Origin: Sphingomonas caseinilytica
Lineage (GTDB): Bacteria; Pseudomonadota; Alphaproteobacteria; Sphingomonadales; Sphingomonadaceae
Assembly: GCF_023516455.1 (NCBI RefSeq)
Contig: NZ_JAMGBA010000004.1
Span: 62,001-126,000 of the forward strand
Direction: 5' to 3'
Length of the DNA stretch: 64,000 bases
Shown piece after piece: positions 3,493 through 8,494 of the stretch. Below the pieces are notes generated by a model. That model searched no databases. It was not told where the DNA came from and saw only the letters and a list, made by a program, of their open reading frames with translations. A program made the translations under genes and the position numbers. Each line of letters starts with the position of its first letter. The stretch's first letter is position 1.

Positions 3493-3795
3493 TTATCCCC
3501 GAAGCTTGGAGAAAATGCCCTGCAGCTGCATGGCGTTGCCCATGTCGCCTTCGACCTTGAGCTTACCGGTCATGAAGGCGGTCATGCCGTCCAGCGCCCC
3601 GGATGCCAGCGACTGGAAATCGTCCCAGCTGACCTTGATCGTCGTGTCCGCAGCCGCGTCATTGTCGGTGACCAGATTGTTGGCGCCGTCCATGTGGATC
3701 ACGCCATCGTCGCCGCCGAAGTCGATCTTCACGGTCTTGCCCGGGAGCCACGCCCCCGCATCCTGCATCTTCGCGAGCAACTCCGACTTCGTCAT
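3493..3795 (-). CDS. SCP2 sterol-binding domain protein
   Basis: 100 residues made up of a single SCP2 domain: KTVKIDFGGDDGVIHMDG, then DTTIKVSWDDFQSLASG and the end GMTAFMTGKLKVEGDMGNAM. Such proteins bind lipids or acyl-CoA in a hydrophobic tunnel. The gene sits just downstream of the repeat-bounded DUF559 unit and upstream of the ACT and sco genes, in a fatty-acid and acyl-CoA neighbourhood. Starts at ATG 3795, about 40 bases from the left copy of a 17-bp direct repeat. Length is normal for stand-alone members. Confidence 0.85.
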   Translation of the reverse strand: MTKSELLAKMQDAGAWLPGKTVKIDFGGDDGVIHMDGANNLVTDNDAAADTTIKVSWDDFQSLASGALDGMTAFMTGKLKVEGDMGNAMQLQGIFSKLRG

Positions 3796-3836: not shown

Positions 3837-4371
3837 ACGGGTTGGCGACAAGCTTGGCATTCATCCTCCCTGCCGCGAAGCGGTGGGGAGGGGGACCGCT
3901 CAGCGAAGCTGAGTGGTGGAGGGGCCAATCAAATCAGCGCACATTCGGATCAGGCTGTCGGCTACTGACGTCGCATCGGCAAACACATCGGCTGCCGCAA
4001 TACGAGTCACTCGAAGGCCAAGCCGTTCCAGATGTTCGCTCCGCTCTTCGTCCAGAAGGGCTCGTTCTTCAAAGTCATGTACCTGACCGTCGATCTCAAT
4101 GACTAGCTTGGCAACAGGGCAGTAAAAGTCGGCTACAAATGGTCCGATAGGATGCTGCCTTCTGAATCGAATTCCCTGCGGTGACCCCCGCAAGCGCAGC
4201 CAAAGCTTGGCCTCGGGTGGAGTCATGGCTCGCCGCAGACGGCGAGCACTCTGCATTGCATTTCGAGTTGCCCGCATCGATTGGCCCCTCCACCGCCTTC
4301 TGCGGTCCCCCTCCCCATCCCGGACAAGTCCGGGACAAGGAGGATGGTAGAAGAACGGGTTGGCGACAAGC
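3837..4371. mobile_element. Putative repeat-bounded DUF559 cassette with inverted ends and a 17-bp flanking direct repeat
   Basis: A perfect 17-bp direct repeat, ACGGGTTGGCGACAAGC, lies at 3837-3853 and 4355-4371. Just inside are imperfect inverted repeats, 3862-3930 and 4279-4346. Both start CATCCTCC and end GGTGGAGGGGCCAATC when read inward, and share TGGGGAGGGGGACCGC. They differ only in small internal hairpins (CCGCGAAGCGG on the left, CCCGGACTTGTCCGGG on the right). The only gene inside is a DUF559 nuclease-like ORF whose last residues are encoded by the left inverted repeat. The design (duplication, inverted ends, one gene) looks like a transposed unit. No known transposase is present, so mobility is inferred. 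Confidence 0.55.
3900..4277 (-). CDS. DUF559 (Vsr-like PD-(D/E)XK fold) protein
   Basis: I start at MRATRNAMQSARRLRRAM (4277); the frame is open further up, but that part is repeat sequence. Family landmarks follow in order: MTPPEAKLWLRLR, then IRFRRQHPIGPFVADFYC, then VIEIDGQVHD. The last two supply the D...E-x-D pattern of the very short patch repair/restriction-endonuclease fold. Function of the family is not established; a DNA nuclease role is inferred from the fold. The C-terminus (IGPSTTQLR) is read from the left inverted repeat, with the stop inside it. A second DUF559 gene lies at 5876-6286, on the other side of the aldehyde dehydrogenase. Confidence 0.85.
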   Translation of the reverse strand: MRATRNAMQSARRLRRAMTPPEAKLWLRLRGSPQGIRFRRQHPIGPFVADFYCPVAKLVIEIDGQVHDFEERALLDEERSEHLERLGLRVTRIAAADVFADATSVADSLIRMCADLIGPSTTQLR

Positions 4372-4395
4372 CGTTGGAAGCCTATCTCGCTCGCC

Positions 4396-5823
4396 ATGAG
4401 CTACGATACCGACCTGCAAATGTTCATCGACGGCGCATGGCGGAGCGGCGAAGGCCGCGACGCGCATCCGGTCGTCAATCCCGTCACCGCCAGCGCAATG
4501 GCCGAAGTGCCCTACGCGACCGCGCATGATCTGGAGGAGGCCCTGGCCGCCGCCGATCGCGCTTGGCCGGAGTGGCGATCGACCGATGTCGAGAAGCGTG
4601 GCGCCATCCTGCACAAGGTAGCTTCCCTGCTTCGGGAGCGCGCAGACCATATCGCCGCGATCCTGACTCAGGAGCAGGGCAAGATCCTCGCCGAGGCCAA
4701 GGCAGAGGTCATGGGCTCGGCGCAGCTGTTCGATTGGTACGCCGAAGAGATCAAGCGCGACTATGGCCGCACTTTGGTCCGCCCCGCCGGCCAGTTGTCG
4801 CGCGTTATCCGCCAGCCGGTCGGCCCGGTCGCGACGTTCAGTCCGTGGAATTTCCCCATCTATCTGCTGGCCAAGAAGGTCGCCGCGGCGCTCGCCGCCG
4901 GCTGCACCGTCATCTCGCGCCCGCCGCACGAAACGCCGGGCTGCGCGACCGAGATGTTCCGCTGCATCGTCGACGCCGGCATTCCCAAGGGCGTGGCCCA
5001 GCTGGTCCACGGCGATGCCCGGATGATCAGCTCGACGCTCATCGCATCGAAGGAAATCCGCAAGGTCAGCTTCACCGGCTCGACCCCGGTCGGAAAGCAT
5101 CTGATGCGCCTTGCCGCCGACAGCATGACGCGCATCACGATGGAGCTTGGCGGCCACGCGCCGGTCCTGATCTTCGACGACTGCGACCTTGAAAAGACCT
5201 TGGACATGGTCGTCCCGCAGAAGTTCCGGAACGCCGGCCAGGTCTGTGTCTCGCCGACCCGCTTCTACGTCCAGGAATCGATCTACGACGCCTTCCTCAA
5301 GGGCTTTGCCGAGCGCACGCAGAAGGTGAAGATCGGCAACGGCCTTGATGCCGACACCCGGATGGGCCCGCTCGCCAACGAGCGTCGTCCAGAAGCGGTC
5401 GGTGCATTGATCGAAGACGCCGTATCCAAAGGCGCCCGCGTCCTCGCCGGCGGATCGAAGGGAGACGGCGGCTTCTTCTTCCAGCCGACCCTGCTCGCCG
5501 ACGTTCCAAACGAAGCGGACATCATGAACGAGGAGCCGTTCGGACCGGTCGCGGTGACCCGCGCCTTCTCAACCTTCGAAGAAGTGATGGAACAGGCCAA
5601 CCGCCTCCCCTTCGGCCTCGCCGCCTTCGCCTTCACCGAAAACGGCCGCCGCGCCAACATGATCGGCGACCTGATCGAAAGTGGAATGGTCGGCATCAAC
5701 ACCTTCGCCATCTCCGTCGCGGATGCACCGTTCGGCGGGGTCAAGGACAGCGGGTTTGGTTCTGAAGGAGGCAAGGAAGGGCTGGAGAGCTATCAGGTCG
5801 TGAAGGCTATTCACCAGGCTTAA
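4396..5823 (+). CDS. NAD(P)-dependent aldehyde dehydrogenase, succinate-semialdehyde dehydrogenase-like
   Basis: 475 residues starting MSYDTDLQMFIDGAW. The nucleotide-binding segment GPVATFSPWNFPIYLLAKK, the catalytic-base motif ITMELGGHAPVLIF and the nucleophile loop FRNAGQVCVSPTRF (Cys) are intact. So is the closing EEPFGPV. Family members oxidise succinate semialdehyde or related aldehydes to acids with NAD(P) in the cytosol. One oddity: the usual 'KP' of the phosphate-binding strand reads VISRPPHETP, with Arg in place of Lys. The start is ATG 4396, 25 bases after the right 17-bp direct repeat. Flanked on both sides by DUF559 cassettes and transcribed away from the SCP2 gene. Confidence 0.9.
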   Translation: MSYDTDLQMFIDGAWRSGEGRDAHPVVNPVTASAMAEVPYATAHDLEEALAAADRAWPEWRSTDVEKRGAILHKVASLLRERADHIAAILTQEQGKILAEAKAEVMGSAQLFDWYAEEIKRDYGRTLVRPAGQLSRVIRQPVGPVATFSPWNFPIYLLAKKVAAALAAGCTVISRPPHETPGCATEMFRCIVDAGIPKGVAQLVHGDARMISSTLIASKEIRKVSFTGSTPVGKHLMRLAADSMTRITMELGGHAPVLIFDDCDLEKTLDMVVPQKFRNAGQVCVSPTRFYVQESIYDAFLKGFAERTQKVKIGNGLDADTRMGPLANERRPEAVGALIEDAVSKGARVLAGGSKGDGGFFFQPTLLADVPNEADIMNEEPFGPVAVTRAFSTFEEVMEQANRLPFGLAAFAFTENGRRANMIGDLIESGMVGINTFAISVADAPFGGVKDSGFGSEGGKEGLESYQVVKAIHQA

Positions 5824-5837
5824 GCTGCTCCACCGTT

Positions 5838-6410
5838 CAACCCACCCCTACCCCTCCCTGCTAGGGAGGGGAGAGTTAGCGAAAACGAGGCCTCCTCTGC
5901 CTCCCCTCCCTGGAAGGGAGGGGCCGGGGGTGGGTTGCGCCGCCAAGGCGCTCCTCGCACTGAGCCAGAACGAATTCCGCAGCGCCGTCAGGATTTTCTT
6001 CGACCTGATTGTTCCATAGCCGCATCACCAGCCAGCCTTGGCCTTCGAGAAATGTCGTCCGCCGATCGTCATAATCAGTGACATTCGCGTGCTGGCCACC
6101 ATCCAGTTCAACTGCCAGCTTCACTTGCCGGCATGCCAAGTCGACAATGTATGGGCCAACGACCAGCTGTCTCGTAAATCGCGGCCGATACTGACGTAGG
6201 CGCAGCCAAAGCAATCGCTCTGCCTTGGTCGAGTTGGTGCGCAAGTCTCGCGCAAAGGTGGTCAATTGTTCGGGAACGCGTTTCATGGCTCTGGCGTAGC
6301 AGGGCTCGCGAAGCTCGCTACCCACCCCTTAATCCCCTCCCTTGCAGGGAGGGGAGAATGTCAGCTTCCATGCCTCCCCTCCCTGCAAGGGAGGGGCCGG
6401 GGGTGGGTAA
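5838..6410. mobile_element. Second repeat-bounded DUF559 unit (repeat units in direct orientation)
   Basis: Two related units of about 95-100 bp bracket the gene: 5838-5937 and 6318-6410. Each opens with ACCCACCCC, contains two hairpins built on CCCCTCCCTG/AGGGAGGGG, and closes with GGGGCCGGGGGTGGGT. Each unit is itself palindromic at its ends. Unlike the first cassette, I see no flanking target duplication, and the two units are direct copies. Copies of the same CCCTCCC/GGGAGGG core occur without DUF559 at 52832-52852 and 57141-57168. That suggests a repeat family that sometimes carries the nuclease-like gene. Confidence 0.55.
5876..6286 (-). CDS. DUF559 (Vsr-like fold) protein, second copy
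   Basis: Starts at MKRVPEQLTTFARDLR (6286), just inside the right repeat unit. Landmarks: STKAERLLWLRLRQYRPRF, then VVGPYIVDLACRQVKLAVEL and DGGQHAN, giving the conserved D and E-x-D-G-x-x-H arrangement; then the strand WLVMRLWNNQVEENPDGAAE. Residues at the C-terminus (THPRPLPSREG and beyond) and the TAA are encoded inside the left repeat unit, so gene and repeat have travelled or evolved together. It shares only the family core with the other DUF559 protein, so it is not a recent duplicate. The biochemical role is unproven; DNA cleavage is inferred from the fold. Confidence 0.85.
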   Translation of the reverse strand: MKRVPEQLTTFARDLRTNSTKAERLLWLRLRQYRPRFTRQLVVGPYIVDLACRQVKLAVELDGGQHANVTDYDDRRTTFLEGQGWLVMRLWNNQVEENPDGAAEFVLAQCEERLGGATHPRPLPSREGRQRRPRFR

Positions 6411-8410: not shown

Positions 8411-8419
8411 AGCCGAATT

Positions 8420-8486
8420 CGTCATTCCCGCGAAGGCGGGAACCTAGCGAAACAAATACTGGGTCCCCGCCTTCGCGGGGATGACG
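8420..8486. repeat. Inverted intergenic repeat (CGTCATTCCCGCGAAGGCGGGAA type)
   Basis: The left unit begins CGTCATTCCCGCGAAGGCGG and the right unit ends CCCCGCCTTCGCGGGGATGACG. Together they form one large palindrome of two hairpins. It lies between the 3' ends of the convergent HxlR and SRPBCC genes, where it may serve as a bidirectional transcription block. Confidence 0.75.
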
Positions 8487-8494
8487 AACGAGGG

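Follow-up and report, generated by a model that had tools for sequence, protein, structure and literature searches.

The 64,000-bp stretch analysed here (the window; positions 62001-126000 of contig 4 in the 2.78-Mb focal genome, G000) carries, between an SCP2 gene and an aldehyde dehydrogenase gene, a nested unit in which a 17-bp perfect direct repeat encloses imperfect inverted arms, 69 and 68 bp long, with a single minus-strand gene of the DUF559 family between them (Table 1). The last codons and stop of this gene (3900-3902) lie inside the left arm, and translation, as judged from the reading frame, probably begins with an ATG (4277) immediately on the inner side of the right arm; a longer frame of 165 residues reads back through that arm. 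Folded as single strands, the arms form two hairpins each (z -4.6 and -3.5), in which the bases of the outer stems agree between the two sides while the inner hairpin sequences differ. The direct repeat, the inverted arms with agreeing stems and differing inner hairpins, and the single gene that draws its C-terminus and stop from the left repeat had all been described in a sequence-only reading of this DNA, and each is confirmed by direct inspection and folding.

Table 1. Features of the two DUF559 units and of the genes flanking the first, in window coordinates
Feature	Positions	Strand	Basis
SCP2 gene, flank of unit 1	3493..3795	-	profile search
Left copy of the 17-bp direct repeat, target-site duplication at the SCP2/aldehyde dehydrogenase junction	3837..3853	+	exact repeat
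Left inverted arm of unit 1, REP-like: two hairpins, C-rich stem and G-rich tail	3862..3930	+	folding
DUF559 gene 1, nuclease with a Vsr-like fold, 125 aa; 3' end within left arm	3900..4277	-	Pfam, fold
Right inverted arm of unit 1	4279..4346	-	folding
Right copy of the 17-bp direct repeat, unit 1	4355..4371	+	exact repeat
Promoter-like TTGGCG-N17-TATCTC before aldehyde dehydrogenase; -35 box inside right 17-mer	4360..4388	+	
Aldehyde dehydrogenase gene, flank of unit 1; start read from sequence	4396..5823	+	
Left double palindrome of the second unit	5840..5935	+	z -6.4
DUF559 gene 2, 136 aa with the ATG at 6286 as probable start; left repeat encodes the C-terminal end	5876..6286	-	
Right double palindrome of the second unit	6320..6408	+	z -9.8

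Within the window the 17-mer has only two matches at up to three mismatches, an outcome also reached in 2 of 100 shuffles. Exact direct repeats of at least 15 bp within 1 kb number five, one being that of unit 1 and two belonging to a second DUF559 unit, and a script search for exact 16-bp inverted pairs 100-600 bp apart recovered only the two pairs from the arms of these units. The exact 17-mer occurs in 5 of the 399 loci examined, always in the SCP2/aldehyde dehydrogenase region, and is thus not a frequent repeat among them; membership of a frequent repeat was an outcome that the sequence-only reading had named as speaking against a cassette. A whole-genome blastn search with an arm of unit 1 matched only the partner arm, with no solo copies in the focal genome. 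The -35 box of a promoter-like sequence, for which an equivalent spacing was read by eye at two further loci (L112 and L123), falls within the 17-mer, so that duplication of the 17-mer may have been kept by selection.

The second unit (5840-6408), overlooked by the sequence-only reading, carries a DUF559 gene 2 kb from the first one, with a match to the Pfam DUF559 profile (PF04480) of 112.3 bits, as compared with 88.9 bits for gene 1 and a curated cut-off of 20.6. Its repeats are two copies of a double palindrome other than that of unit 1, and in the focal genome its arm matches the partner and a few partial sequences only. Four DUF559 genes were found in this genome, and all four are boxed by inverted repeats as defined below, with scores of 45-49; the remaining two lie between yebC and ruvC and before lpd (gene names read from sequence), each between inverted C-rich/G-rich hairpins. 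Profile searches detected no DDE or HUH domain in the two DUF559 proteins of the window, Rfam returned no match at gathering score, and PADLOC gave weak partial matches for two of the four proteins.

In an alignment of 16 sequences the invariant columns of the DUF559 domain include D44, E55, D57 and H61, for which a catalytic role appears likely. A structure model (pLDDT 87.5) retrieved an endonuclease-like protein (3hrl, E 2.8e-6), the catalytic domain of the homing endonuclease I-Bth0305I (3r3p, 2e-4), which shows distant sequence similarity as well, and E. coli Vsr (1vsr, 0.054), and the predicted fold is accordingly of the Vsr-like PD-(D/E)XK type. The family is under purifying selection, with dN below dS in all eight pairs compared (dS saturated in two). 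Among 119 same-genome pairs of boxed loci we found no near-identical DUF559 pair, the highest similarity being 0.65 of the self score; recent gene jumping is therefore not seen, and this maximum is what one would expect of a partner gene, not of an insertion sequence that amplifies.

We scored a DUF559 locus as boxed when the sequences on either side of the domain matched each other in inverted orientation with a best score of at least 30. By this measure 41 of 61 loci in a first set are boxed, against none of 183 outward-shifted windows, and 39 of 40 in a further set from the focal family, for which windows slid at matched spacing gave 8 of 1119, which brings the total for Pseudomonadota to 80 of 101 (controls 0/183 and 8/1119). 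The first set comprises the four loci of the focal genome and the best-scoring matches, mostly one per genome, and the second was picked from nine multi-copy focal-family genomes, so that neither is random. A third, likewise non-random set of named loci from many phyla, consisting of the best 80 of 560 with five dropped for short flanks, gave 48 boxed of 75 against 12 of 2445 control windows. At a score of at least 40 the counts are 34 of 40 focal-family and 42 of 75 named loci, with no control window in either case; at the threshold of 30, 21 of 101 Pseudomonadota and 27 of 75 named loci are unboxed. The association extends across phyla: the boxed named loci include some from proteobacteria, Bacteroidota, Bacillota, relatives of cyanobacteria and of Verrucomicrobia, and candidate phyla, as well as a single contig assigned to an archaeal bin, these taxa being those of the record titles, many of them metagenome bins and possibly misassigned. 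ParE toxin genes, by comparison, are boxed in 0 of 26 loci (4 of the 30 chosen were cut by contig ends and dropped).

Most arms, read by eye, follow a common theme of a hairpin with a C-rich 5' stem followed by a G-rich tail, and the commonest arm 7-mer, AGGGGGG or its complement, is found in 20 of the 48 arm pairs, as compared with 0.3 of 48 for control windows. Because of this shared theme, flanks taken from different DUF559 loci also reach 30 in 28% of 561 mismatched pairs. The sequence-only reading had suggested tabulating whether the repeat found here flanks DUF559 genes in other genomes; this holds for the repeat class, which flanks them far above control, but not for the exact CATCCTCC...GGCCAATC sequence, which is not universal.

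Arm pairs are nevertheless mostly locus-specific within the shared theme. In the 10 genomes with at least three DUF559 loci examined, the best partner of a left flank is the right flank of the same unit, and not any flank of that genome's other DUF559 loci examined, in 46 of 53 cases (median scores 62 for own and 24.5 for other partners). Arms also covary with the protein: over 79 boxed loci with an open domain (L017, with a stop inside, was left out of protein comparisons), arm similarity follows protein similarity with a Mantel r of 0.39 (highest permutation 0.15), and with r 0.31 once same-genome pairs and pairs with homologous flanking genes are removed (highest of 2000 permutations 0.18). 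The median arm similarity is 0.43 for similar proteins in different genomes (191 pairs), 0.31 for pairs within a genome (118) and 0.31 for all others (2630), so that arms go with the protein and not with the host genome.

Solo hairpins, counted by a strict pattern in 118 genomes of the order, reach up to 207 per genome (high in G005, G033, G023 and others), whereas a reversed-pattern control gave 0-2. Across 57 focal-family genomes, which are related and do not constitute independent samples, hairpin number correlates with DUF559 number (Spearman 0.68): the 7 genomes without DUF559 have 0-4 hairpins, the 13 with one gene a median of 0, and the 18 with at least four a median of 29.5. In one hairpin-rich genome (G023) each of the 11 doublets inspected consists of two inverted REPs around a short spacer, and its gene-less inverted pairs share the arms of one of its own DUF559 units.

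Comparison with relatives reveals presence/absence differences at four junctions. A search found SCP2 in 58 of 61 genomes, the focal one among them, and of 30 SCP2 loci examined, all from the same genus, 21 had a readable aldehyde dehydrogenase gene (the other nine, with no match to it in the stretch, were dropped). The junction is short and empty in 17, with 71-102 bp from the SCP2 start to dehydrogenase residue 13; it is filled by DUF559 in two, the focal genome and G423, whose proteins are 61% identical, and it holds an inverted hairpin pair without a gene in G403 and another repeat type in G407. The empty site with a single 17-mer for which the sequence-only reading had suggested searching does exist as a near-copy, with one mismatch in the nearest relative, G098 (L112), and two in G425 (L120); in most other empty junctions the 17-mer has diverged and is unrecognisable at four mismatches. 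The 17-bp direct repeats at the two filled junctions differ, each being similar to the region in which it lies, and because G098 and G422 are empty, though nearer to the focal genome by protein identity than G423 is, two separate insertions at nearly one spot are the simplest reading. The gene-less allele of G403 seems, by eye, to be without the 17-bp segment.

At yebC-ruvC, 30 loci (27 from the same genus) comprise 22 gaps of at most 55 bp, two DUF559 genes (G000 and G403), a gene-less hairpin pair in G402 with a 7-bp direct repeat (by eye), a single hairpin in G421 and four with 354-369 bp of gene-like sequence. DUF559 precedes lpd in 2 of 30 loci (G000 and G410), while in 12 of the 30, including G098 with an Lpd 95% identical, a thioesterase gene lies 13 bp from lpd; the remaining loci have other upstream sequence, apart from one that was not read. 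The second unit, 3' of the aldehyde dehydrogenase gene, is found in none of nine relatives with a readable gene end (10 fetched), G098 having a lone degenerate hairpin at this place. A 17-bp duplication was seen at the SCP2 junction only, in two genomes. Target duplication as a general feature was considered and rejected, direct repeats outside the arms being near chance at the 80 boxed loci: at least eight matching positions occur in 7 (6.4 expected), and at least ten in four, namely unit 1, two repeat copies and one 10-bp match.

Our preferred reading, to which we assign a probability of roughly two in three, is that unit 1 represents the autonomous form of a mobile, REP-like repeat system partnered by a DUF559 nuclease. 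The finding is real and larger than the sequence-only reading stated: its interpretation of the unit as a mobile cassette is supported, and none of the outcomes that it had set against itself (no empty alleles, DUF559 genes with no tie to the repeats, a frequent 17-mer) appeared; moreover, the boxing of DUF559 by palindromes in many bacteria suggests an overlooked class of mobile repeat systems. The DUF559 protein would move or maintain the REP-like repeats, and for its cutting of them, the chemistry involved and the route of insertion we infer the following scheme. The non-autonomous form would be an inverted REP pair, each a C-rich hairpin with a G-rich tail, around a short spacer, and the autonomous form the same pair with the DUF559 gene as spacer. 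The Vsr-like nuclease would recognise its own G-tailed hairpins, either extruded or formed on single-stranded DNA, and make nicks there or close by, as well as at intergenic targets, and repair of the break might then copy or insert the repeat. Fill-in of a staggered break could leave a duplication (17 bp at unit 1, about 7 bp by eye at one solo insertion), and trimming of the break could leave none. In favour of this reading are the boxing across phyla, the own-partner matches, the covariation of arms and protein, the copy-number correlation, the empty, gene-less and filled alleles, the purifying selection, the fold and the unboxed ParE genes. Counting against it are the unboxed loci, including ycjD of E. 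coli and three Azospirillum copies (see below), the median of 0 hairpins in genomes with a single DUF559 gene, direct repeats near chance and the lack of near-identical gene pairs.

An alternative in which DUF559 is a passenger, riding as cargo between two G-tailed repeats whose mobility depends on a different enzyme, for instance a RAYT- or TIRYT-type Y1 tyrosine transposase, is in our judgement unlikely, though more probable than the other rivals. The GGGGWSAS-motif ends reported around some Y1 transposases resemble some of the G-rich tails seen here (Di Nocera 2013, PMC3733652, from the available part of that text), and in one genome (L381; G113:C1:1116570-1117041) a frame between two C-rich hairpins is, by eye, unlike DUF559. 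E. coli K-12 provides a further case: its DUF559 gene ycjD, between fabI and sapF (L400), is unboxed with a score of 18 and has two C-rich/G-rich hairpins, by eye, on the 3' side only. Of 5426 E. coli genomes, 5100 contain matches to the hairpin stretch, at a median of 4 places, as compared with 3333 that carry at least 80% of the ycjD stretch; hairpins therefore persist without ycjD, and this leads us to place slightly less confidence in DUF559 as the partner and slightly more in its being a passenger. Against cargo status, arm similarity follows the DUF559 protein more closely than co-residence in a genome, hairpin number is still predicted by DUF559 number when GIY-YIG and CGTC counts are held (partial rank correlation 0.52, 57 genomes), DUF559 is boxed across many phyla, and the ParE toxins are not boxed at all. 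We also considered ycjD as a source of empty sites and rejected it, since two strains without the gene carry TetR/efflux genes beside fabI rather than a clean gap.

Among eight DUF559 loci from the plasmid collection, five are boxed (L384-L388, scores 41-208) and three are not, the latter all from Azospirillum (the copies of A. brasilense/argentinense, L382, L383 and L389). The A. brasilense/argentinense locus is whole in all seven matching Azospirillum records, and the copy of A. lipoferum 4B is boxed. The highest score (208) belongs to a Sinorhizobium meliloti Ak57 locus (L387) with 114-bp inverted arms that adjoins an IS4-family element, and of its 152 matching records most of the 30 listed match only the IS4 element beside DUF559; no clean strain-level empty site was found in the plasmid records. 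On a Sphingomonas parapaucimobilis plasmid (L385), the boxed DUF559 gene lies between sufB and sufC, within the suf gene cluster.

It is improbable that DUF559 is simply an ordinary Vsr-like mismatch-repair nuclease beside which repeats collect for unrelated reasons. Such a role is proposed for the DUF559 protein VsrA of Caulobacter (CCNA_02930), which, in the part of the report available, is needed for SOS after loss of a cytosine methyltransferase (PMC12907096), but it leaves unexplained the matched arms on both sides, their covariation with the protein, the patchy multi-copy distribution and the empty sites; repair and repeat-partner roles could also coexist. Very little weight attaches to chance, by which abundant intergenic repeats (up to 207 hairpins in some genomes) would flank any recently acquired gene, given that the unit 1 arm matches only its partner in the focal genome, slid controls are near zero, ParE toxins are unboxed in 26 of 26 cases and own partners win in 46 of 53. 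As improbable is a role of the hairpins as transcription terminators or insulators of the gene: they do lie near stop and start codons at the loci inspected by eye, but no T-run adjoins the unit 1 arms (by eye), gene-less pairs and empty sites occur at the same junctions, and the arms covary with the protein.

The system thus interpreted, a DUF559 nuclease with its repeats, has counterparts among known elements. It is closest to the RAYT/REP systems (REPtron, REPIN), with which it shares a gene between two inverted palindromes, gene-less inverted doublets elsewhere in some genomes, and the coexistence of diverged genes within a genome, most of them with a repeat type of their own. According to the available text, RAYT genes have two inverted REPs at their flanks in every case (PMC2817692), the same architecture as that of boxed DUF559. 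It works like RAYT/REP but is not a member, as the defining enzyme is absent: DUF559 is Vsr-like rather than a Y1 (HUH) tyrosine transposase (Pfam 01797), and its repeats, from arms read by eye, are C-rich hairpins with a G-rich tail and without the GTAG tag. Insertion sequences and MITEs likewise have one gene between inverted ends, gene-less versions and, as at one junction here, a target duplication, whereas no DDE or HUH domain was detected in the two window proteins, and DUF559 units show neither a constant duplication nor near-identical copies within a genome and have internally palindromic ends. I-Bth0305I resembles DUF559 in fold, in distant sequence similarity and as a selfish nuclease gene; its PDB chain, however, is named as a mobile intron protein, while the DUF559 gene has palindromic ends and no intron was noticed. 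A homing endonuclease would cut alleles that lack the element and be copied into them; for DUF559, empty and filled alleles exist. Caulobacter VsrA is itself a DUF559 protein with an in vivo link to the DNA damage response, although studied, in the portion of the report at hand, as a mismatch-repair nuclease (PMC12907096).

GIY-YIG genes had been meant as a negative control, a use that failed, many of them being boxed by other repeats; ParE toxins then took their place. In a first set 11 of 30 are boxed, by repeats that to the eye are in no case C-rich hairpins, against none among 85 shifted windows, and in a focal-family set, picked non-randomly from focal-family matches, 20 of 20 are boxed against 5 of 560 slid controls. 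The arms of 17 of these 20 fit a loose CGTC regular expression, although two of the 17 (L337 and L348) look like other types. At the GIY-YIG genes of L302, L316, L317, L322, L323 and L325-L350, the inverted repeats are mostly of the CGTC or the CTTCGA/GCTCAG type. After subtraction of one GIY-YIG match per genome, which we take to be UvrC, the partial rank correlation of GIY-YIG with the CGTC pattern is 0.40 over the 57 genomes, with cross terms of 0.14-0.18; the plain cross correlations of DUF559 and GIY-YIG with the other's repeat are 0.50-0.52. One genome (G006) is a counter-example, with 352 and 360 matches to the CGTC pattern on the two strands and one GIY-YIG match, and is either an exception or a repeat population without a partner. 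CGTC-tagged REPs resemble the DUF559 repeats as tagged palindromes, common in alphaproteobacteria and often in inverted pairs, but form another sequence class, such repeats surrounding GIY-YIG genes here; the available part of their description reports no transposase partner (Di Nocera 2013, PMC3733652).

We lean, by a small degree, towards several parallel nuclease-driven REP systems, DUF559 with C-rich/G-tail repeats and GIY-YIG with CGTC repeats beside Y1 RAYT with GTAG, in which each small solitary nuclease family would have its own palindrome superfamily. REP-like repeats are among the commonest non-coding elements of bacteria, and the GTAG class and certain related ends have a known partner enzyme. 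If our reading is right, much intergenic repeat DNA has an identified mover that is not a transposase, unrelated nucleases gave rise to REP systems on more than one occasion, and repeat spread becomes testable in E. coli K-12, which carries ycjD; assigning one repeat class to DUF559 and another to GIY-YIG would give both a function. In the open-licence PMC literature, to the extent of the text available, we found no link of DUF559 or GIY-YIG to REP-like repeats, and one may stand there under other gene names. Such a pairing would bear on the reported need for a DUF559 protein in a DNA damage response (PMC12907096) and on a Legionella evolution experiment whose accessible text places recombination hotspots beside GIY-YIG genes and at a transposase/DUF559 segment (PMC12308824). 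The window itself also holds, at 8418-8488, an inverted CGTC-type hairpin pair with 30-bp arms and an 11-bp spacer.
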